Of a stretch of 64,000 bases of DNA, positions 8,597 through 37,683 are shown piece after piece. Numbering within the stretch: the stretch's first letter is position 1; every line of letters starts with the position of its first letter. Source of the DNA: Marinobacter halotolerans. Lineage in GTDB: Bacteria > Pseudomonadota > Gammaproteobacteria > Pseudomonadales > Oleiphilaceae. The notes under the pieces are model-generated. The model did no database searches, had not been told where the DNA came from, and saw only the letters and a program-made list of their open reading frames with translations. Both the position numbers and the translations under genes were made by a program. Location of the stretch: positions 930,001 to 994,000 of the forward strand of contig NZ_VMHP01000002.1 in the NCBI RefSeq assembly GCF_008795985.1. Reading direction: 5' to 3'.

Positions 8597-9538
8597 ATGA
8601 GCATCCTTGTATTTGCTGATCATGATAACAGCAGCCTGAAGCAGTCCACGCTCAACGTGGTTGCCGCTGCTAAAGCCATCGGTGGCGATATCGACATTCT
8701 GGTTGCCGGTGAAAACTGTGGTTCCGTAGGCGAAGCTGCGGCACAGGCCGAAGGCGTGAACAAGGTTCTGGTTGCGGATAATGCCGCTTACGGTCACTCA
8801 CTGGCAGAAAACCTGTCAGAGCTGGTGGCAGAAGTTGGCAAGGGTTACAGCCACATTCTAGCCTCCGCAGGCACCACCGGTAAGGATTTCATGCCGCGTG
8901 TTGCAGCATTGCTGGACGTTGCCCAGGTGTCGGACATCATGCGCGTTGAGTCCGAGGACACATTCGTGCGTCCGATCTACGCGGGTAACGCCATCGCGAC
9001 CGTGAAAGCGACTGACAGCATCAAGGTCATCACGGTTCGTCCCACCGCCTTTGATCCGGTTGCTGCTGAAGGCGGATCCGCGTCTGTTGAAGCACTGGAC
9101 GTTGTGAAGGATGCAGGCCTGTCCGAGTTCGTCAGTGAAGAGCTTGCCAAGTCCGACCGTCCTGACCTGTCCAGCGCCGACATCGTCATTTCCGGTGGCC
9201 GCGGCATGCAGAACGGTGACAACTTCAAGATGCTGGAAAGCGTTGCCGACCAACTGGGTGCCGCCATCGGCGCTTCCCGTGCGGCGGTTGATGCCGGTTT
9301 CGTACCGAACGATATGCAGGTCGGCCAGACCGGTAAGATCGTTGCACCGCAGCTGTACATCGCGGTGGGCATTTCCGGTGCTATCCAGCACCTGGCAGGT
9401 ATGGGCGATTCCAAAGTGATCGCAGCCATCAACAAGGACGAAGAGGCGCCGATTTTTCAGGTAGCTGATTACGGCCTGGTTGCTGACCTGTTCGAAGCTG
9501 TACCACAGCTGGAAGAAGAACTGAAAAAGGTTCTTTGA
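8597..9538 (+). CDS. etfA: Electron transfer flavoprotein alpha subunit
   Basis: EtfA is the FAD-binding partner of EtfB. The 313-residue protein has the N-terminal ETF domain (1-180) and the C-terminal FAD-binding domain with [22 protein letters not shown], and [21 protein letters not shown], where the cofactor lies. The gene begins directly after the etfB stop (TAAATG) and is followed by a strong terminator, so the operon is just etfBA. Electrons pass from here to the ETF-QO encoded on the other side of the shared regulatory region. Confidence 0.98.
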
Positions 9539-9551
9539 CCATCGGCGATTG

Positions 9552-9578
9552 AAAAAGGCACCTTAGGGTGCCTTTTTT
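9552..9578 (+). terminator. Rho-independent terminator of etfBA
   Basis: An 11-bp stem (AAAAAGGCACC with GGTGCCTTTTT) and TTAG loop, ending in six T residues, begins 14 bases after the etfA stop. The A-rich 5' arm lets it also work leftward for the gene ending at 9591. Confidence 0.9.
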
Positions 9579-9590
9579 ATTGCCTGGCTC

Positions 9591-10067
9591 TTATTGCCGT
9601 GGCGGTCTGTCGCGATCTTTTGACCGGCGGGCGGTCAAACGTTTTTCTTTGCGGCTGATGAACAGAGTATCGGCAATCAGATGAATCGCTTTATTGGTCG
9701 TCTGGGCCGCTTTGTATATCTGGGCGCTGGTATTGTTGTGGGTTTCCCGGGCACGTCGGGCACTTTCACGGAATTCTTCGTCGGTGGAAAAGTGGTCGAT
9801 CAGGCTGAAGGTTGTGGCGGCAATCGCCTTGTGCATTTTTTCCACGGCTGAAGTGCCCTGTTTCACCGTGTCTTCAAGCAATCGGGCCCGGTTGCGGGTT
9901 TCCAGCAGCTCCATGCGACTTTTCTGGATATGACTGTTGGCCGAACGCTGGGCCGCGCGCAAGCTTATCAGGACCCGGCGGTTACGGAGGTGTATCGAGA
10001 AGGCGACCGCCAGAAAACAGGTGGTGACCAGGATTAGAACAGTGCTGGTAATGAGCAGGGCGTTCAT
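9591..10067 (-). CDS. Membrane-anchored coiled-coil protein of unknown function
   Basis: This 158-residue protein has one N-terminal membrane segment (about 5-27), followed by a cytoplasmic-type basic region and a long helical, probably coiled-coil part (about 40-130). It ends in a strongly basic tail rich in Arg and Lys. I do not recognise a family. It lies eight bases after the gene at 10075-10404, which has the same anchor-plus-helix design, so the two are probably cotranscribed and may form a complex. The stop faces the etfBA terminator. Confidence 0.7.
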   Translation of the reverse strand: MNALLITSTVLILVTTCFLAVAFSIHLRNRRVLISLRAAQRSANSHIQKSRMELLETRNRARLLEDTVKQGTSAVEKMHKAIAATTFSLIDHFSTDEEFRESARRARETHNNTSAQIYKAAQTTNKAIHLIADTLFISRKEKRLTARRSKDRDRPPRQ

Positions 10068-10074
10068 AAAGCTC

Positions 10075-10404
10075 CTAGCGATAGTCTAGTTGCATGGTGA
10101 CTTGAATATCCCGTTCTTCCAGCTCTTTCTGTAATTCCTTCATAACCTCCTGATACACAAGCCTTGTTACCATCACCGGTAGTCGGTCTGCAAGCACTCT
10201 GGCAGAACGGGATTCCCGGCGGGCGACGGCAATCGGATCAACAACCTGAAGCGTAAGTACCAGCTGCGGTTCCCGGGTATCATCTGGCCCATGGCTCTCT
10301 TGCAAGGCGTCCTGGATAAGGGCTTTCTGCATGCGGACCTGCCAGAATAGCCAGGCGCTGATCAGGGTGAGAATTATGCTCAACGTGAGCAGCAGGGTGG
10401 TCAA
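10075..10404 (-). CDS. Small membrane-anchored protein of unknown function
   Basis: The 109-residue protein has an N-terminal membrane segment (about 3-22), then a soluble domain with a strand (PQLVLTLQVVDPIAVARRES) and a helix ending in KELQKELEERD. No family is recognised. The start is TTG at 10404, supported by a GGAGG site seven bases before it; there is no upstream ATG in frame close by. It is the first gene of a two-gene unit with the coiled-coil protein at 9591. Confidence 0.65.
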   Translation of the reverse strand: MTTLLLTLSIILTLISAWLFWQVRMQKALIQDALQESHGPDDTREPQLVLTLQVVDPIAVARRESRSARVLADRLPVMVTRLVYQEVMKELQKELEERDIQVTMQLDYR

Positions 10405-28306: not shown

Positions 28307-29782
28307 TTAGCACGTAGGCATGGTCTGAAGGGCCAATTTTCGGCGGATATAGCGTCCGAGAATATCGACACCGATGTTCAGAAGAGCGGTGATGACAATC
28401 AATACCATGGCACGGTCGAACTGTATGTTCTGGATGGCGCTATCGACATAGAAACCCAAGGTGTAAATACCCAGAATGCCGAGAATGGCGGTCTCGCGCA
28501 TGATGATTTCCCAGCGATAGAACAGAAACGCCAGGAACGACCGGTAAACTCTTGGTACCAGCTCATAGGTATAGCGGTTGAAGCCGACGGGGGCATCCGG
28601 CCGAAGCCCGATGGCACTGGATTGCCGGCCAATCAGATGCCCGATAATGCCGCCATTGTGAAGCGCCAGGGCGACAATGGCCGGCAACATCGACGGCCCC
28701 CATAGCTGGAGCATGATATAGGCAAGGATATACTCCGGGGTTGAGCGGGCAATAACCAGAAATATATGGCCGCCAGTACGCCGCACCGGACCACCAAAGT
28801 GCGTGGAAATCAACGGAAAAGCCAGCAGCGATAGGATGCCGGTGGCGACCAGCGCAATCTGCGTCAACACCACTGTGTTGAGGATGCCGGGCAGTGCCTC
28901 GGTCACCATCAGATCGTTCAACCAGGTCATCAGGCCTGACAGCCCTTCATTGTTTTTAATGGGTGACGGCACGATGTCCTGGGTAAAGAATCGCTCCACG
29001 TTGCCCCAGACAATGGGAAAACCCTCGCCGAGGAAAAAGGGTGCACCCAACACATAGACGGGCAAGAGTTTGGGTCTGACCCAGAGTGGCATGGTGGCGA
29101 TTAGCACATAGAACAGGATGAGCATGGCGCCGGCTTCGGAATAGTGCCCTTGCGAAAAGGCAGACTCGAGGAAAAACCCGAGTGTCGGCAGACCCACAAA
29201 CCCGAGAATCGCGCTTGAGCGCAGGCCGCATTCGAGGCGATAGGCTGTGTAGGTGCGCAACTGAACCCAGCAGTCGGGGATGCGCGTGAACAGAAACGCT
29301 GAAACAACACCGGTACCGGGTGGCAGTAGCCTGCCCGGCGTGGGATCGGCCTCGTCAAGAATCTCGGAATAGACCTTGGCAAAAATACCCGAGTAGGGAA
29401 TAGCGATTGCCAGCACCCCGGTCAGGGGGTGAAAGCCGAAGAACTGCAGAAAGATCAACGCCCAGAAGAGCTCGTGAATGGCCCGGATGAAGGCGCAGAA
29501 GGTCCTCACTGCAACGTTGCGGTACACCAGCGACAAAAGGAAACCGCATACACTGCCCAGGGCGACACCTACGAAGGCAAACGCGACCGTCCTGAGAAGC
29601 GCGACGGCGACACCCTCAGAGCTGAAAAAATCTGGCGTTAAAACGCCCATGAAGAAGCTCCCCAGATCTCTCCAGGGGTTTGCGGCCGTAATCGCGATGT
29701 CAGCAAACGCCAGCCCGATAATGGCAATGGCAAGGAAAAGAAAGCTGATTCGTACCGTGGGTGAGGAGAACATGAAAGACAT
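28307..29782 (-). CDS. Tandem-fused ABC permease of putative selenate/phosphonate-type importer
   Basis: This 491-residue protein holds two PhnE-like permease halves in one chain (about 1-255 and 285-485), each with about six helices. The family EAA-type loops are visible: one around VFVG-like FVGLPTLGFFLESAFSQG and one near ILGIYTLGFYVDSAIQ, with matching sequence, which shows the halves are duplicates. Importers of this subfamily move phosphonate, phosphite or, in the selenium-linked branch, an oxyanion thought to be selenate. The ATG overlaps the stop of the ATPase gene (TGATG). The neighbouring SenB and SelD genes favour a selenium substrate. Confidence 0.82.
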   Translation of the reverse strand: MSFMFSSPTVRISFLFLAIAIIGLAFADIAITAANPWRDLGSFFMGVLTPDFFSSEGVAVALLRTVAFAFVGVALGSVCGFLLSLVYRNVAVRTFCAFIRAIHELFWALIFLQFFGFHPLTGVLAIAIPYSGIFAKVYSEILDEADPTPGRLLPPGTGVVSAFLFTRIPDCWVQLRTYTAYRLECGLRSSAILGFVGLPTLGFFLESAFSQGHYSEAGAMLILFYVLIATMPLWVRPKLLPVYVLGAPFFLGEGFPIVWGNVERFFTQDIVPSPIKNNEGLSGLMTWLNDLMVTEALPGILNTVVLTQIALVATGILSLLAFPLISTHFGGPVRRTGGHIFLVIARSTPEYILAYIMLQLWGPSMLPAIVALALHNGGIIGHLIGRQSSAIGLRPDAPVGFNRYTYELVPRVYRSFLAFLFYRWEIIMRETAILGILGIYTLGFYVDSAIQNIQFDRAMVLIVITALLNIGVDILGRYIRRKLALQTMPTC

Positions 29783-30432
29783 CAGTAAAGCGGAGTGATG
29801 TCTGAAGGCGCCAGTTTGTCACTGGGTTCATCCAGCGCAACCTGACCGTCCTGAATTCCCACGATGCGGGTACAGTACTTGAGTGCCAACTCCACATCAT
29901 GCAATGCAATGACACTGGTTGAGAACCGCTCACTGAGCAGCTTCATGACCAGGTGTGCTGTGGGACCGTCCAGGGCCGACACGGGTTCGTCCGCAAGCAG
30001 CAGGGGAGACTGTCGAAACAACGCCCGGGCGATAGCCACCCGCTGACGCTGGCCACCCGACAGCGAAGCCGCAGGCATCCATATCTTTTCAGGCATGGAC
30101 AGTTCTTTCAGCAGACCGCGTACTGCAGCCGCGTCTTTTGAAAACGGGCGAATCAGGGTCACCGAGTTGTACCAGACTGAATGGCTATCCAGTTGTCCCA
30201 TGAACACGTTGTGGAAAACGGGGAGCGCATTGACCAGGCCGAGGTCCTGCGGCACCAGGGATGAGTTTCGGCCAACCCGCTGATGGATCAGATTAATCAG
30301 CGTCGACTTTCCTGCGCCACTGCGACCAACGAGGCCGACCCGTTCACCGTCTTTCACATTCAGAGAGAGCGGGCCGATGACCCGCTCTCCGCTGAACGAT
30401 GCTGTCAGGGCATCAAGATCAAATCCTGACAT
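29782..30432 (-). CDS. ABC importer ATP-binding protein, PhnC-like, selenium-linked
   Basis: The 216-residue ATPase has Walker A GRSGAGKST (36-44), the Q-loop VPQDLG, signature LSGGQRQRVAIARALF, Walker B LLLADEPVSALD and H-loop IALHDVE. Length and sequence fit a short PhnC-type ATPase. ATG 30432 overlaps the stop of the binding-protein gene (TGATG) and is preferred to a TTG one codon earlier. Its own stop overlaps the permease start in the same way, so the three importer genes are fully coupled. Confidence 0.86.
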   Translation of the reverse strand: MSGFDLDALTASFSGERVIGPLSLNVKDGERVGLVGRSGAGKSTLINLIHQRVGRNSSLVPQDLGLVNALPVFHNVFMGQLDSHSVWYNSVTLIRPFSKDAAAVRGLLKELSMPEKIWMPAASLSGGQRQRVAIARALFRQSPLLLADEPVSALDGPTAHLVMKLLSERFSTSVIALHDVELALKYCTRIVGIQDGQVALDEPSDKLAPSDITPLY

Positions 30433-31301
30433 CAATCAATGATTCCGATCTGTTTCCCTACGACTTCAATAGGCTTGTATGCGTCATTCGAGACAGGAAT
30501 AAACCCGGAGCGGGGAAAGCTATTGAGAAGTTCTTTGTCTTCCATCGAAAGCAGTGCTTCCTGGACGCGCTGCATGAAACCATCGCCGAAACGCTCATCC
30601 ACATCACCGCGGATGGTCCACTGATAGTTCGGGTAGCTTGGCGTTGTCCAGATGACTTTTACCGCATCGGTATCGATGTTGCCGTTTTCTAGCTCTTTGG
30701 TCCAGACAGAGTAATTGATGGCGCCAACGTCATAGGTGCCTGACTCCACAAGACGAAGTGTCTTGGTGTGGTTTCCACTGAAGCCAACACGTGAGAATAC
30801 ATCCTGGGGCGCCTCGTTAAACGCTTCGCGGATGTAATATTCCGGAATCAGACGTCCGGACGTGGATCCCTTCGAGCCGAAGGTGAATGTTTTGCCACGC
30901 AGCTCTTGGGGCAGATTTTCACTTTCTTCCAGACCAGTGCTCTTATGGGCGATGAAGTAGGAGTTAAAGGCCTGGTCTTCTACGCCCTGGGCAATGGCCT
31001 GTGAGCCTGGAACCAGAGACCGCGCCTGAACGCCGGATAGGCCCCCGAACCAGGCAAGCTGGACCTGGTTGTTGCGGAATGCGGAAACGGCAGCTGCGTA
31101 GGATTTAACCGGCACGTAGCGCACATCGACTTCCAGTTTTTCCTCCAGATAGTCCGCAATGCCACGGAAGCGCTCAACCAGTTTGGTTTCGTCTTCGTCG
31201 GGAATGGCTGTAAACACCAGCGTCTGGGCCGAAACAGTGGCCGATGAAGCAAGCAGCAACAAACTTGCGGCGGCCAATTTCCTTATTGAATTCAATACCA
31301 T
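30432..31301 (-). CDS. Putative selenate-type ABC transporter substrate-binding protein
   Basis: The 289-residue protein has a signal peptide (1-25, cleavage after TVSA) and the PhnD/PtxB-like binding fold: LVFTAIPDEDETKLVERF, QLAWFGGLSGVQA, and FGSKGSTSGRLIPEYY, where the Ser/Thr-rich loop binds an oxyanion. By sequence alone it could bind phosphonate or phosphite. The context, next to SenB-like and SelD-like genes, fits the family I recall as putative selenate ABC transporter binding proteins. AAGGA lies eight bases before the ATG. It is the first gene of the importer operon and is divergent from the SenB-like gene across 175 bases. Confidence 0.83.
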   Translation of the reverse strand: MVLNSIRKLAAASLLLLASSATVSAQTLVFTAIPDEDETKLVERFRGIADYLEEKLEVDVRYVPVKSYAAAVSAFRNNQVQLAWFGGLSGVQARSLVPGSQAIAQGVEDQAFNSYFIAHKSTGLEESENLPQELRGKTFTFGSKGSTSGRLIPEYYIREAFNEAPQDVFSRVGFSGNHTKTLRLVESGTYDVGAINYSVWTKELENGNIDTDAVKVIWTTPSYPNYQWTIRGDVDERFGDGFMQRVQEALLSMEDKELLNSFPRSGFIPVSNDAYKPIEVVGKQIGIID

Positions 31302-31476
31302 TTTGAATGTCCTTCGCGTCAGGGATTAGTTTGTTCAAGTTCTTTCCGGGCTGCCCTTGGGAAAAGGCGACCACAGGATACCGTTATTTACGCATACCCG
31401 GAACAGCTATACGATCGCACGAGCAAATCGGGTTTTCCTGTTTCTGAACTGGCCGTTGTGCCGGAGCGCATCACTC

Positions 31477-32463
31477 ATGAATATTGTTCTCATTACGCCC
31501 GCGCCTGCAGGTTCCAAGGCCGGCAATCGCGCGACAGCAGAGCGCTGGGCCAAACTGTTGGAGCAGGAAGGTCACCATGTCAGCATTCTGACTGACTTTC
31601 AGGATGAGCCCTGTGATCTTTTAATTGCGCTGCACGCCTGGCGGAGCCATCTGGCGGTCAGACGTTTTCGCGAAGCTTTTCCTGATATCCCGTTGATCGT
31701 CGCGCTGACAGGCACGGATATCTACGACCACCAGCTCCGTTTTCCGGAGCAAACGCTTGAGACCATGGAGCAGGCTGACTGCCTGATCGGTCTTCATGAG
31801 CGGGTTGCAAGGGACATTCCGGAGCGATTTGGCGAAAAGCTTGTCACCGTTCTGCAATCGGCACAAATCCCGGAGCGACTCAGCGGTAAAAAGCGCGCTG
31901 GTTTTCAGGTCTGTGTTATTGGTCACCTCAGGGAAGAAAAGGACTCACTGCGCGCCGCCTTCGCCGCACGCCTTGTTCCCGCCAAATCGACGCTTAAAGT
32001 GATCAATGCTGGCAAACCCCATAACGAGCAGTGGGAGAGTCTGGCACGGGAAGAACTGGCCACTAATCCGCGTTTTGAATGGCTTGGGGAGGTCTCCAGG
32101 GAAGAGGTTCAGGCTCTTATGCTGAGCTCAGATGCGATGGTGATCAGTTCGATCATGGAAGGTGGTGCCAACGTGGTGTCAGAAGCCTGTCGGATCGGAT
32201 TGCCGGTTCTTGCGTCGGATATTTCCGGAAACATCGGCCTGCTTGGCGACGGCTATCCGGGCTACTTCAAGACGGGCAGCGAAGAAGAGCTTGCCCGACT
32301 GTTATGGCAGGCGGAGAGTTCACCGGAGTTCCTGGCAGACCTGGCCGCAAAGGTTGGAGAACTTGCTGTGAACTTCACTCCGCAGCAGGAGCAGGCTGCG
32401 CTTGCCAGGGCTCTAAAAAAGGCGCTGGCAGCGCGTCAGGCAGGCTCTATTCAACCAGGCTGA
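31477..32463 (+). CDS. senB: Selenosugar synthase-like glycosyltransferase (SenB/TIGR04348 family)
   Basis: This 328-residue GT-B glycosyltransferase begins MNIVLITPAPAGSKAGNRAT and carries the donor-site segment SSIMEGGANVVSEACRIGLPV near the C-terminus. I recognise it as the TIGR04348 family. Its members include SenB, reported to join selenophosphate and a UDP-sugar into a selenosugar in selenoneine synthesis. The context supports this: a selenium-type importer diverges from it and a SelD fusion converges on it. The frame is open from 31357, but the ATG at 31477 is the family start; its GGAG site is eleven bases upstream. The tail overlaps the SelD gene by 17 bases. The symbol is by family and context, not experiment. 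Confidence 0.83.
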   Translation: MNIVLITPAPAGSKAGNRATAERWAKLLEQEGHHVSILTDFQDEPCDLLIALHAWRSHLAVRRFREAFPDIPLIVALTGTDIYDHQLRFPEQTLETMEQADCLIGLHERVARDIPERFGEKLVTVLQSAQIPERLSGKKRAGFQVCVIGHLREEKDSLRAAFAARLVPAKSTLKVINAGKPHNEQWESLAREELATNPRFEWLGEVSREEVQALMLSSDAMVISSIMEGGANVVSEACRIGLPVLASDISGNIGLLGDGYPGYFKTGSEEELARLLWQAESSPEFLADLAAKVGELAVNFTPQQEQAALARALKKALAARQAGSIQPG

Positions 32464-34723
32464 CTGGCTCTATGGGGCCAGTCTCGTCCTGGGCGGTAAT
32501 GCGACCGATAATGGCCGTATGAGGATAGCCCAGGGCCTTTAGCTCCCGTACGCATTCCTCGGCCTTGTCCGCCGCAACGCTGGCGAGCAGTCCGCCGGCG
32601 GTCTGAGGATCGAAGATCAGCGGATAGCGGGGATGATTGACCCATTTATCCTGATCCCGAATGCCCCGGCGCAGGCGGATATTGGCCGGCTGTAGCGAGC
32701 TCAGAATGCCGGCTGCTGCGGTTTCCTCCGCGCCTGGAAGAATGGGCAGGGCGCTGAGATTCAGTTCGGCGTCGACTCCGGACGGGCGGGTCATTTCCAC
32801 CAGGTGCCCGAGCAGACCAAACCCGGTTACATCAGTACAGGCTTTGGAACCGAACCGGTGCAGGCACTCGGCGGCGGCCTTGTTGGACTGAATCATGGAC
32901 GCCAGCGCGCTGTCGATCCATCGGCCCTTGGCTTCAAGCTTGGCGTGGGCGGCAAACAGGGTGCCCGTACCAATGGGTTTGGTCAGAATCAGGGCGTCGC
33001 CGGCCCGCAGGCCGCCTTTGCTCATCACTTCTTTGGGGTCGATCAGGCCGTTCACTGCGAAGCCCAGCGCCAGTTCCTTGCCTTCACCCGTGTGGCCGCC
33101 AACCAAGGCACAGCCCGCTTCGTTAAGCACCTCGACGGCGCCGGACATCATCTGGAACACCACGTCCTCGACCTTGGATTCAATGCCGTAGGGCACAGTG
33201 GCGACGGCCGTGGCGCTCTGGGCTTCCGCGCCCATGGCAAACACGTCACCCAGGGCATGATTGGCTGCAACCTTGCCGAATGTGTAGGGGTCGTCGATAA
33301 ACGCTCGGAAAAAATCCACCGTATGGACAACGGCTTTGCCTGGGGGCACTTCAAGTACAGCGGCGTCGTCCGGCGCGTGCAGGCCGATAATAATGTCGTC
33401 CCGCTCGATCGGCCTTAGCTCGCCGAGTGCCCGGGAAAGCACCGTGCTACCAACCTTGGCCCCACAACCACCACAGCGCATGGCGACAGCGGAAATGGCC
33501 TGGGAGGCCTCTTCGGGATTCTGGGCCGCGCCGGTATCCGGCACAGCGGCGGATTCTTCCATCTGTGGCAAGTGGTTAAACTTCGCCATAAACCGGTGAT
33601 CGATCCAGTTTTTCCAGCGCCATACCCAGGCGCCAGAGAAAGACCGGTCTCCCCGGGAGGCAATCGCGTACTTGTCGCCTGTACTGATCAGCGCCAGCCA
33701 TTTTTTCTGGGGCCGGAACGGCTTTGGCGTCTTCCCGAGAGCCAGCCGTTTGAGGTTATCGGCCAGGGGAGGGCCCTGGCGAACCGCAAACACGCCCGCT
33801 TTTTCCCGGGGGTAATTGATCACGTTGGCAATATCGCCTGCCGCAAAGATCGAATCATCGGTTTCGGTTTGTAATGTGTCCCGAACCCTGATAAATCCAC
33901 CATCGTCCAGCGCCAGCCCGGTATTTTTAAGCCATTCGGGCCCGCCGGCTCGAGTGACCCAAAGCACTTGGTCGGCTTCCACAGTGCCGCCGCTATCGGT
34001 TTTCAGGGTGTTCGGTTCTACCTGGGATACGGCCGAGCCAAGATGGATCTTCACACCCCGGTCTTTCAGCGTTTTTTCGAAAAGCTGGCGAACATCGGCA
34101 TTATGGGTGGGCAATATCTGCGGTTGGGCGTCCAGCAGGTGGAATTGAAGCTGAGCGGGGTCGTGGCCACGCTTTTTCAGCTCGTTGCGGAGGCGGAACT
34201 GCATAGCCAGCGTAAGCTCGACGCCACCGGCGCCCGCGCCAACGACGGCGATACTCAGGGGGCCGTCATGGTTCTCAAGCTGGGACAGCAGGGATAGCCA
34301 CCTCTGGTTGAAGCCGTTTATGGGCTTCACCGGCACTGCATGTTCGCTTGCACCTGCTACATCGCTGACCCGAGGAGAAGAACCAATATTGACCGATAGA
34401 AGGTCGTAGGGCACATCCGGCCGGGACCGACAGATAACCTTTTTGGAATCGCGGTCGATACCGATTGCCTCATCCCGGTAAAACCGGGCGCCAGCGAACT
34501 CAGCCAGACGGCTCAGGTCTATATGGACCTCGTCATAGCTGTAATGCCCGGCAACATAGCCAGGCAGCATTCCGGAATAGGGCGTGTGGGTGTCGCGGCA
34601 GATGAGAGTCAGGCGGACACCGGGGACGGGGTTCATGGCAAAGCGCTTCAGAACCCCTACGTGGCTGTGCCCGCCTCCTATCAGGACAATGTCCCGTAAT
34701 ACAGGCTGGTCATTTTGTTGCAT
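32447..34723 (-). CDS. selD: FAD oxidoreductase-selenide,water dikinase (SelD) fusion
   Basis: SelD makes selenophosphate from selenide and ATP. This 758-residue protein has an N-terminal FAD/NAD-binding domain of NADH dehydrogenase type (about 10-375, with IGGGHSHVGVL and IFAAGDIANV) joined to a full SelD domain (about 410-750). The SelD active site reads CGGCGAK: Cys420 takes the place of the catalytic Cys/Sec and Lys423 that of Lys20 of E. coli SelD, so it is a cysteine form. DDAAV, the GGHTGEGKEL loop and DVTGFGLLGH are present. Fusions of this kind are known; the first domain may deliver reduced selenium, but that is inference. The ATG overlaps the stop of the phasin-like gene (TAATG). 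Confidence 0.93.
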   Translation of the reverse strand: MQQNDQPVLRDIVLIGGGHSHVGVLKRFAMNPVPGVRLTLICRDTHTPYSGMLPGYVAGHYSYDEVHIDLSRLAEFAGARFYRDEAIGIDRDSKKVICRSRPDVPYDLLSVNIGSSPRVSDVAGASEHAVPVKPINGFNQRWLSLLSQLENHDGPLSIAVVGAGAGGVELTLAMQFRLRNELKKRGHDPAQLQFHLLDAQPQILPTHNADVRQLFEKTLKDRGVKIHLGSAVSQVEPNTLKTDSGGTVEADQVLWVTRAGGPEWLKNTGLALDDGGFIRVRDTLQTETDDSIFAAGDIANVINYPREKAGVFAVRQGPPLADNLKRLALGKTPKPFRPQKKWLALISTGDKYAIASRGDRSFSGAWVWRWKNWIDHRFMAKFNHLPQMEESAAVPDTGAAQNPEEASQAISAVAMRCGGCGAKVGSTVLSRALGELRPIERDDIIIGLHAPDDAAVLEVPPGKAVVHTVDFFRAFIDDPYTFGKVAANHALGDVFAMGAEAQSATAVATVPYGIESKVEDVVFQMMSGAVEVLNEAGCALVGGHTGEGKELALGFAVNGLIDPKEVMSKGGLRAGDALILTKPIGTGTLFAAHAKLEAKGRWIDSALASMIQSNKAAAECLHRFGSKACTDVTGFGLLGHLVEMTRPSGVDAELNLSALPILPGAEETAAAGILSSLQPANIRLRRGIRDQDKWVNHPRYPLIFDPQTAGGLLASVAADKAEECVRELKALGYPHTAIIGRITAQDETGPIEPVSLVE

Positions 34724-35385
34724 TAAAGAACTTTCTTAGCCTCCGCGCTGAAGGTGCTGAAGCCTTTAACATTGCTGAAGGCAGAAAGTTTTGCCTGATC
34801 ATCCGCGGAAGGGTTGGCAATCTGCGAGATGTCAGTAATACCGGCATCTTTCATCTTCTTGGCCGTTGCAGGGCCAATTCCTTTCACGCGGGTCAGATCG
34901 CTGCTGTCTGCTGCTTTTGCCGCCGCTGCAGGTTTTTTGCTGGCTGCCGCCGGCTTGCGTGCTGTTGATGCCGGCTTTTTGGTAGCCGTCTTCTTTACAG
35001 CGGGCTTTTTAGTGGCGGTTTTCTTCGCAGCCGTCTTTTTGGCAGCCGGTTTTTTGGCTGTGGATTTTTTGGGAGCTGTCTTTTTGCTGGCACTGGACTT
35101 ACTGCTGGAAAGTCCCAGACGCTCCATAACGCTATTCTGGAGCTCGTGGAACTCGTCCATACGACGGTCAAACTCGTCGGTGAAGCGCTTCACCTCGCGC
35201 TCCCGCAGTTCGTCAATTTCCTTCAGCAACTTTCTGACCGGCTCCTGAACCTGGTTCTGGACACCGTCAAACTGCTTGATGGCATCGTTCATCAGCTTTT
35301 CGATCCGCTGCGACGTTTTCTCAAACTCTTTGTTGACCTTTTCAACCACTTTATCGACGTTCTGCTTGCTGGCTTTCTTGCCCAT
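34723..35385 (-). CDS. Phasin-like granule-associated protein with Lys/Ala-rich and helix-hairpin-helix regions
   Basis: This 220-residue protein has three parts: a coiled coil (about 8-92), a histone-like stretch of KKPAAKK- and KKTATKK-type repeats (about 96-158), and a helix-hairpin-helix domain (about 162-215, with LTRVKGIGPATAKKMKDAGI). PhaF-type phasins join a granule-binding helix to a similar basic tail that binds DNA and help to share polyhydroxyalkanoate granules between daughter cells. The C-terminal hairpin domain is not part of PhaF as I know it and suggests a further nucleic acid contact. A GGGGAG site precedes the ATG. The stop codon overlaps the SelD start. Confidence 0.75.
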   Translation of the reverse strand: MGKKASKQNVDKVVEKVNKEFEKTSQRIEKLMNDAIKQFDGVQNQVQEPVRKLLKEIDELREREVKRFTDEFDRRMDEFHELQNSVMERLGLSSSKSSASKKTAPKKSTAKKPAAKKTAAKKTATKKPAVKKTATKKPASTARKPAAASKKPAAAAKAADSSDLTRVKGIGPATAKKMKDAGITDISQIANPSADDQAKLSAFSNVKGFSTFSAEAKKVL

Positions 35386-36021: not shown

Positions 36022-37554
36022 TTATTCACTTTTGGTTCGCTTGTTGATGTCGTAAATATCAGTGCGCCGATCTTTCAGGTTTGTCACCGACCCTTCGTTT
36101 CGAACCAGTTTCAGTTTTTCCAGATCCATGTCCGAGAACATGATCATTTCGGTATTCGGCGTGGTTTCCGCCATGACCGCATCGTGGGGGAAGGCGAAGT
36201 CGGACGGTGAGAATACCGATGACTGGGCATACTGAACGTCGAGGTTTTCAACCTTGGGCAGGTTGCCGACGCTGCCGGTGATTACCACGTAGCATTCGTT
36301 TTCAATGGCACGGGCCTGGGCACAATGCCTGACGCGCAAATAGCCGTTCTTGGTATCGGTCCAGAAGGGGACCATGATGATGTCCACTTCCTCGCTGGCG
36401 GCCAGGCGGCCCAGTTCCGGAAACTCGATGTCGTAGCAGATCATGATGGCAACGCGGCCGGCATCAGTATCAAACACCTCAAACTTGTCACCACCCTCAA
36501 GAACCCAGTCGCGGCGCTCGTGGGGGGTAATGTGCACCTTTCGCTGTTCGTCTACACGGCCGTCCCGATGGCAGAGATAGGACACGTTATAGACCCGGTC
36601 ATTCTCCAGCAAAGGCATGGAGCCGGTGATAATGTTGATGTTGTAACTGACCGCCATTTCTGACATTTCATTGCGGAACTGCTCGGTAAATCCGGCCAGG
36701 AAGCGAATGGCGCGGGTCTGGTCCACCTGGTCAGTCAGGCCCATCAGTGGCGCGTTGAAGAATTCGGGAAAAATGGCGAAATCGCTTTTGTAATCGGATA
36801 GCGCATCCACGAAATACTCGACCTGCTCAAGTACTTCATCGACCGAAGTGAATTCCCGCATCTGCCACTGAACCGCGCCCAGCCGGACCTGTGTTTTTTT
36901 GACATTGAGCACCGCGGATGGCGGTGTGTAGAGAATGTTCCGCCACTCCAACAGCGTGGCGTAGCCCTGGGACTTTTCGTCCTCGGGCAGGTATTTATGC
37001 ATCAGGCGCGTGACCTGAAAATCGTTCGAGAGCTGGAAGCTCAGAATCGGGTCGTAAATGTCTTTGCGATCTACCCGCTGAATGTATTCTTCCGGAGAAT
37101 ACTGGTCAGCGTACTTGAAGTAGCCGGGAATCCGCCCACCGGCGAGGATGGCGCGCAGATTCATCGACCGGCAAAGTTCCTTGCGGGCTTCGTAAAGTCG
37201 ACGGCCAAGGCGATATCCCCGGTATTCCGGGTGAACCAGCACGTCCAGCCCGTAGAGAGAATCACCTTGCGCGTTGTGCCAGATTTTTTCATTGCGCAGG
37301 ATCAGGTCATCGTAGGTGTGCGGGTTGCTGAACCTTTCATATTTGACGCACACGGTCAGTGCTACCGCTACCAGCTCACCGGATTCCTCAATACAGATCT
37401 GACCATCGGGAAACTGTTCTACAAGAGCCTTGATGGTGTCTTCCGGCCATGAACCGCCAATATCATCGTAGATGCGGTCCATCAGGACCTGAAGTTGAGG
37501 GTAATCGTCGACTTCAAGGTTACGAAGATTGAGGTGCAGTTCTTCGTGGGCCAT
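36022..37554 (-). CDS. Bifunctional GNAT acetyltransferase-nitrilase family protein
   Basis: This 510-residue protein joins a GNAT domain (about 1-205) to a carbon-nitrogen hydrolase domain (about 222-495). The acetyl-CoA loop appears in RGYRLGRRLYEAR. The hydrolase triad Glu-Lys-Cys is complete: Glu264 (FPEFFN), Lys339 (QRKVHI) and Cys373 (MICYDIEFPE). The same fusion is widespread in bacteria but its substrate is not established. Both active sites look intact, so it may acetylate an amine and hydrolyse an amide of related compounds. ATG 37554 has GGAG nine bases upstream; a longer frame to 37587 has no support. Confidence 0.88.
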   Translation of the reverse strand: MAHEELHLNLRNLEVDDYPQLQVLMDRIYDDIGGSWPEDTIKALVEQFPDGQICIEESGELVAVALTVCVKYERFSNPHTYDDLILRNEKIWHNAQGDSLYGLDVLVHPEYRGYRLGRRLYEARKELCRSMNLRAILAGGRIPGYFKYADQYSPEEYIQRVDRKDIYDPILSFQLSNDFQVTRLMHKYLPEDEKSQGYATLLEWRNILYTPPSAVLNVKKTQVRLGAVQWQMREFTSVDEVLEQVEYFVDALSDYKSDFAIFPEFFNAPLMGLTDQVDQTRAIRFLAGFTEQFRNEMSEMAVSYNINIITGSMPLLENDRVYNVSYLCHRDGRVDEQRKVHITPHERRDWVLEGGDKFEVFDTDAGRVAIMICYDIEFPELGRLAASEEVDIIMVPFWTDTKNGYLRVRHCAQARAIENECYVVITGSVGNLPKVENLDVQYAQSSVFSPSDFAFPHDAVMAETTPNTEMIMFSDMDLEKLKLVRNEGSVTNLKDRRTDIYDINKRTKSE

Positions 37555-37683
37555 ACGGGCAGCTCCAGTCAGGTGATAAGGGACCAATCAACAAAGAAAG
37601 ATGATTAAAGAAAGGATGTTAACAGATAGCACTGGAGAGGTCCCATTCGGCGCCGGACAATCACCTATGTCCGGCTTTACGGA

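Follow-up and report, generated by a model that had tools for sequence, protein, structure and literature searches.

Where does the selenium go in a bacterium that carries a selenosugar synthase beside a SelD protein, with no gene nearby for an enzyme that could accept the sugar-bound selenium? This question is raised by a stretch of 64,000 nucleotides of Marinobacter halotolerans (contig NZ_VMHP01000002.1, positions 930,001 to 994,000 of the forward strand), which we call the window. It contains three importer genes on the minus strand, a divergent senB on the plus strand and a convergent minus-strand gene that fuses a flavin adenine dinucleotide (FAD)-dependent oxidoreductase to SelD. The answer that we propose with high confidence, judging from sequence comparisons, is that the window would be the supply half of the ovoselenol pathway and that the other half, ovsA-ovsM, is found in the same genome but on a different contig. 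This genome has 3.78 Mb in 5 contigs with a stated completeness of 99.99%, and the window sits on contig C2.

The pathway itself is known, and here it is present in a split form. Reportedly it consists of SelD/SenC, SenB, OvsA and OvsM, as Kayrouz et al. are said to have described in 2024 (Nat Chem), and all four kinds are encoded in the window genome. The difference is that in the window genome they are split over contigs, whereas Halovibrio and Halospina hold them in one cluster. The genes on which the argument turns are:

31477..32463, plus strand: senB, selenosugar synthase (Se-glycosyltransferase), 328 amino acids from ATG; TIGR04348 387.6-387.9 bits, cut-off 300
32447..34723, minus strand: FAD-dependent oxidoreductase-SelD fusion (SenC role); TIGR03169 519 bits, over its cut-off, and TIGR00476, which covers the SelD part, 302 bits, cut-off 125
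8907-10304 of locus L012 on contig C1 (also in L009), minus strand: OvsA, selenoxide synthase, 465 amino acids; 8u41 681.6 bits

The selenosugar synthase and the SelD fusion

We took the start of senB at the ATG at 31477; the list of open reading frames begins it at a TTG at 31357. At its 3' end the gene overlaps the 3' end of selD by 17 bases, tail to tail. The SelD part of the fusion has the motif CGGCGAK at residue 417, with the Cys and Lys, which we take to be catalytic, both kept.

Regarding SenB, its PDB matches at E <= 0.001 are only four distinct sequences, all of the SenB family (8jjq, 8jjn, 8fbx, 8k5u), and all 11 positions compared with the 8jjq chain are identical. Among the identical residues are N20, T23, H58, R61, T83, T85, D86, R155, K158 and E231, the ten positions named in the SenB mechanism paper (PMC10891094). 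That paper assigns N20, H58, R61, T83, T85 and R155 to the selenophosphate pocket, K158 to catalysis and N20, T23 and E231 to the sugar donor, and its EGGAHV motif reads EGGANV in the window protein.

One could argue that this TIGR04348 protein is an ordinary glycosyltransferase with phosphate or a thiol as acceptor, and that the importer serves phosphonate or phosphite. It shares a modest 100 of 311 aligned residues with a SenB of known structure, and the nearest solved structures of the importer's binding protein carry phosphonate-type protein names. However, the SenB family score of 388 bits is well over 300, the seven residues N20, H58, R61, T83, T85, R155 and K158 are all kept, and the SelD fusion is present in 19 of the 20 senB regions that we fetched, beside senB in 18 of them, which makes this explanation scarcely conceivable. 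Among the 16 Marinobacter regions the fusion adjoins senB in 15. The exception is L201 (genome G044), where importer and senB are present but the 15 kb that we fetched contain no SelD fusion.

OvsA and OvsM on contig C1

The sequence-only reading had stated that no EgtB- or EgtD-like gene is close to this locus, which is true of the window. In the whole genome, FGE-sulfatase (PF03781) has three matches, two on C1 and one on C3, with none on C2, and EgtD (PF10017) has no match, in a search that did match in 2 of 14 control genomes. The genome-wide search for SenA, EgtB and EgtD that had been proposed thus gave a SenA homologue of the OvsA type on C1 and no EgtD. A SenA homologue elsewhere in the genome was one part of what had been named as refuting the sequence-only reading, the other part being its matching coexpression. 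No SenA-type synthase was found: the three PF03781 proteins are OvsA, OvoA and a protein of 315 amino acids on C3 (locus L010), which is over no NCBIfam cut-off and is not a row of our tree.

Among PDB entries the C1 protein of 465 amino acids matches 8u41 best (681.6 bits, versus 171 for SenA and 180 for EgtB), an entry titled 'Selenoxide synthase OvsA'. In a tree of 75 rows it falls in a 32-row clade together with 8u41, supported by 100 in the Shimodaira-Hasegawa-like approximate likelihood ratio test (SH-aLRT), while the SenA and EgtB rows stand outside. The rows are a sample, including 11 of 61 Marinobacter OvsA loci and, of L213-L239, only L236, with identical rows omitted; in this quick tree the SenA-type rows form no single well-supported clade, and long branches were flagged. 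The row nearest to 8u41 is that of Halovibrio salipaludis, and the fetched locus whose OvsA comes closest to ours, with 85% identity, belongs to M. confluentis.

Within this sample three residues, M410, Q439 and A440, separate the two kinds of synthase. They are M, Q and A in all 32 rows of the OvsA clade, whereas the 34 SenA-type rows, which we grouped by their score to OvsA, have in every case Y, then N or T, then F or Y. Compared by eye, 8u41 and its PDB variant 8ux5 differ in the aligned stretch by M to Y and by QA to NF, exactly at those three residues, and because 8ux5 is changed at just those, its depositors seem to have tested them. His55, His138 and His142 are conserved as well, presumably with a metal role as in EgtB.

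The sequence-only reading had also considered that SenA might be encoded elsewhere. A synthase related to SenA is indeed on C1, but its score, its clade and its residues all place it with OvsA. The point in favour of SenA is that NF041186, the NCBIfam model titled 'selenoneine synthase SenA', gives this protein 427.7 bits, just over its cut-off of 420; the other OvsA rows reach about 419-449 bits. Since the model accepts it, automatic annotation would name it SenA, an error that pipelines are likely to make with OvsA proteins. Importing hercynine from the medium would also be possible in principle, so that an enzyme acting as SenA could make selenoneine from it. Nevertheless, the score of 681 versus 171 bits, the clade support of 100, the M/Q/A residues, the absence of any EgtD match in the genome and the ovoA_Cterm-type methyltransferase gene directly downstream all speak for OvsA, and we consider activity as SenA very unlikely. 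We rejected the identity of the C1 protein as SenA on score, clade and residues, despite its acceptance by NF041186.

That downstream gene lies 9 bases after ovsA on the same strand and encodes a methyltransferase of 247 amino acids. In the PDB this protein matches 9bxh best (281.6 bits, versus 235 for OvoM), an entry titled '5-selenohistidine N-methyltransferase OvsM'. With OvsA and OvsM in the genome, there is no need here for a cell that stops at the selenosugar or hands it to an unknown acceptor, two possibilities raised before. We discarded the selenosugar as an end product in the window genome upon finding these two enzymes.

The second PF03781 protein on C1 is a complete OvoA of 720 amino acids (TIGR04344 686 bits, TIGR04345 349.5 bits), which joins an N-terminal synthase and a C-terminal methyltransferase in one gene. 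Because an intact OvoA is encoded, the gene content suggests that ovothiol is made in parallel. The likeness to the ovothiol pathway thus consists of a separate OvoA gene whose methyltransferase domain is homologous to OvsM. That pathway differs in that it draws sulfur from cysteine, where ovoselenol draws selenium from a selenosugar, and does without SenB.

Gene order and co-occurrence among relatives

We scanned named genomes and took the best 80 of 91 confirmed relatives, which gave 79 OvsA loci, each examined up to 10 kb on either side, some contigs being shorter. Within this DNA, SenB is present in 9 of the 79 loci. Seven genes form one cluster in Halovibrio salipaludis (L070) and Halospina denitrificans (L092), arranged as importer, senB, ovsA, ovsM, selD fusion, and a Halomonas metagenome-assembled genome (L071, a short contig) has the same order starting at the binding protein. 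The window has the Halovibrio/Halospina order minus ovsA-ovsM. SenB is near ovsA in none of the 61 Marinobacter loci (counted by titles) in the DNA examined, and the 16 Marinobacter regions among the 20 senB regions have importer and senB together without OvsA. In the window genome itself senB and ovsA are not in one cluster, the former being on C2 and the latter on C1. It is the gene order, with ovsA-ovsM apart from senB-selD in Marinobacter, that makes an acceptor enzyme seem absent. Since senB adjoins ovsA in 4 of 5 verrucomicrobial loci (L082, L083, L084 and L088, not L089), we infer that the linkage was the older state, as this distribution suggests.

SenB was found in all 50 OvsA genomes searched, in 49 of them over the cut-off; these genomes were picked by hand from the 79 loci and are mostly isolates. 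Regarding the converse, we used two even and overlapping draws, of 369 genomes of the class and 398 of the phylum. In the class draw SenB is present in 23 genomes, each of which also encodes a protein that scores above 420 bits with NF041186; this partner is less than 1 kb from SenB in 21 cases and about 12 kb away in G268, which has both a SenA-type and an OvsA-type protein, and the window genome alone has it on another contig. In the phylum draw SenB is present in 13 genomes, 11 of them new, and 9 of the 11 have an NF041186 match over the cut-off. We also counted G603, whose protein scores 378.8 bits, below the cut-off, because its gene is closely clustered with those for EgtD, SelD, SenB and an importer. 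A SenA- or OvsA-type partner is therefore present in 10 of the 11 new phylum genomes and in 33 of the 34 distinct SenB genomes of both draws.

The one genome left is G619, a single contig of 2.7 Mb with no SenA, OvsA or EgtB-level protein: NF041186 has no match in it at E <= 1e-60, and a loose search gave at best 30.8 bits over 112 positions. Its senB (315 amino acids, 450 bits) stands directly before a SelD-like gene (L235 8574-10588, G619:C1), which is 36% identical to the window fusion over 338 amino acids, and is preceded by an lnt-like gene, recognised by eye. Comparing the neighbours of TIGR04348 genes without SenA, as the sequence-only reading had proposed, thus gave two results: OvsA is absent nearby in 16 of 16 Marinobacter regions, but genome-wide only G619, of the 34 SenB genomes, has no partner. 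G619, and not the window, is the true candidate for SenB without an acceptor, and it is marked out by having SenB and SelD without any known partner. Orphan SenB as a general class was rejected, G619 being the only such case among 34 SenB genomes.

These counts also bear on the idea of a selenosugar that is itself the final product of SenB's pathway or is handed to some unknown acceptor. The window does lack an acceptor gene, and the senB-selD pair of G619 indicates that other genomes may have systems of this sort. However, the window genome encodes OvsA and OvsM, relatives have the same gene order with ovsA-ovsM present and 33 of 34 SenB genomes have a partner, which makes the idea extremely unlikely here.

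Several points weigh against assigning the window to the ovoselenol pathway. The two halves are unlinked, and it is co-occurrence and homology, rather than an operon or expression, that speak for their joint use. The C1 synthase passes the cut-off of the SenA model, as described above, and the methyltransferase tree puts OvsM on the OvsM side with an SH-aLRT of 94, just under the value marked with a star. Furthermore, apart from the window genome the class draw has 22 genomes with SenB, and in 21 of these the partner over the cut-off is solely of the SenA type; therefore, SenB alone does not point to ovoselenol. Finally, G619 shows that SenB is possible without a SenA- or OvsA-type partner.

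As for the methyltransferase, OvsM is found in 28 of the 79 OvsA loci and is missing from the DNA examined in the other 51. All 50 OvsA genomes searched have an OvsM/OvoA-type match somewhere (E <= 1e-25), two of these matches being weak (G046, with stop codons, and G050). In Marinobacter genomes without ovsM beside ovsA we observed standalone OvoA-type methyltransferases (L143, L146-L153), which lie on a contig other than that of ovsA or some 236 kb off (G041). These nine unlinked proteins group with the methyltransferase domain of the window genome's OvoA (support 98), and their split from the linked OvsM has a support of 94. OvoA was not found by a loose NF041186 search in 4 of the nine genomes; such a search of five chosen genomes (G022, G030, G037, G044 and G048) gave nothing at the OvoA level, which is 166-168 bits. 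Judging from this pattern, the last step in some Marinobacter may have passed to a methyltransferase of the OvoA type.

L076, L191, L202, G012, G014, G045 and G268 each encode two synthases, one of the SenA type and one of the OvsA type, and those for which we searched the genome have one SenB; two synthases with one SenB would mean a single selenosugar supply for two products. A broader idea is that the selenosugar of SenB is a shared selenium currency for several acceptors, with unlinked OvoA-type methyltransferases replacing OvsM in the many Marinobacter that lack it beside ovsA, which we put forward as a speculation that is rather doubtful. The cases to be covered by this equally doubtful scheme are OvsA alone in the window genome, OvsA and SenA in G012, G014, G045 and G268, and a partner of another kind in G619.

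Proposed route, importer and neighbouring genes

In the proposed route, the PhnCDE-like importer probably takes up an oxidised selenium anion. SelD would make selenophosphate, judging from its family, and the fused FAD domain perhaps handles selenium or the supply of reductant. SenB would then join selenophosphate and a uridine diphosphate (UDP)-sugar into a 1-selenosugar, as its homology and conserved catalytic residues indicate. OvsA, which has the EgtB/SenA/OvoA fold, would transfer the selenium to the imidazole of histidine, which we take to be its substrate, and not to hercynine, in accordance with its clade and residues. Finally, OvsM, by homology, would N-methylate 5-selenohistidine to ovoselenol. 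The selenoneine pathway (SenA, SenB, SenC) is similar in having SenB, SelD and a last enzyme of the same fold; the differences are that neither a SenA-type enzyme nor EgtD was found in the window genome and that the predicted acceptor is histidine.

Ovoselenol is thus very probably the product of the window genome, as predicted from its genes. A metabolite other than selenoneine had been anticipated; the evidence supports this, and the likely one is already known. PMC13188914 gives selenoneine and ovoselenol as two characterised selenometabolites, and PMC12631010 mentions ovoselenol too. Our literature searches on ovoselenol, and on Marinobacter with selenoneine, gave no Marinobacter paper among the open-access papers covered; the 2024 paper may well include it. 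Many other members of Marinobacter, a common marine genus, probably make ovoselenol as well, and searches limited to gene neighbourhoods miss split pathways of this kind.

Regarding other uses of selenium, SelU/YbbB is encoded in the genome (TIGR03167 362.8 bits, cut-off 219.75). SelA (TIGR00474) has no match in the genome, and SelA-dependent selenocysteine use was set aside, SelB and tRNA-Sec not having been searched for. Because SelU is present and SelA was not found, selenophosphate probably serves both the 2-selenouridine of transfer RNA (tRNA) and ovoselenol.

The importer trio of the ATP-binding cassette (ABC) type completes the locus:

28307..29782, minus strand: PhnE-type ABC importer permease of double length; two stretches match TIGR01097, 187 bits, under the cut-off of 216.7
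29782..30435, minus strand: ABC importer ATPase (PhnC-like); PF00005 over cut-off, TIGR02315 157.5 bits, under cut-off
30432..31301, minus strand: periplasmic binding protein; TIGR04553 423.8 bits, cut-off 250

Family matches confirmed all five genes that had been read as an importer trio, a divergent SenB and a convergent FAD-SelD fusion. The permease has no Pfam match, and a permease match is near senB in all 20 fetched regions, clipped by the region edge in L193 and both partial and weak in L202 (43% over 130 amino acids). TIGR04553 is titled 'putative selenate ABC transporter substrate-binding protein', a label that is a guess by NCBI. Papers on a selenate ABC transporter together with SelD or PhnD were looked for, and nothing evidently relevant was listed.

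Directly upstream of the SelD fusion, 34723-35385 encodes a protein of 220 amino acids with a C-terminal helix-hairpin-helix domain and a histone H1-like stretch (PF07382, under its cut-off). Further on, 36022-37587 encodes 521 amino acids that fuse a GNAT acetyltransferase and a carbon-nitrogen hydrolase (nitrilase) domain, over no NCBIfam cut-off.

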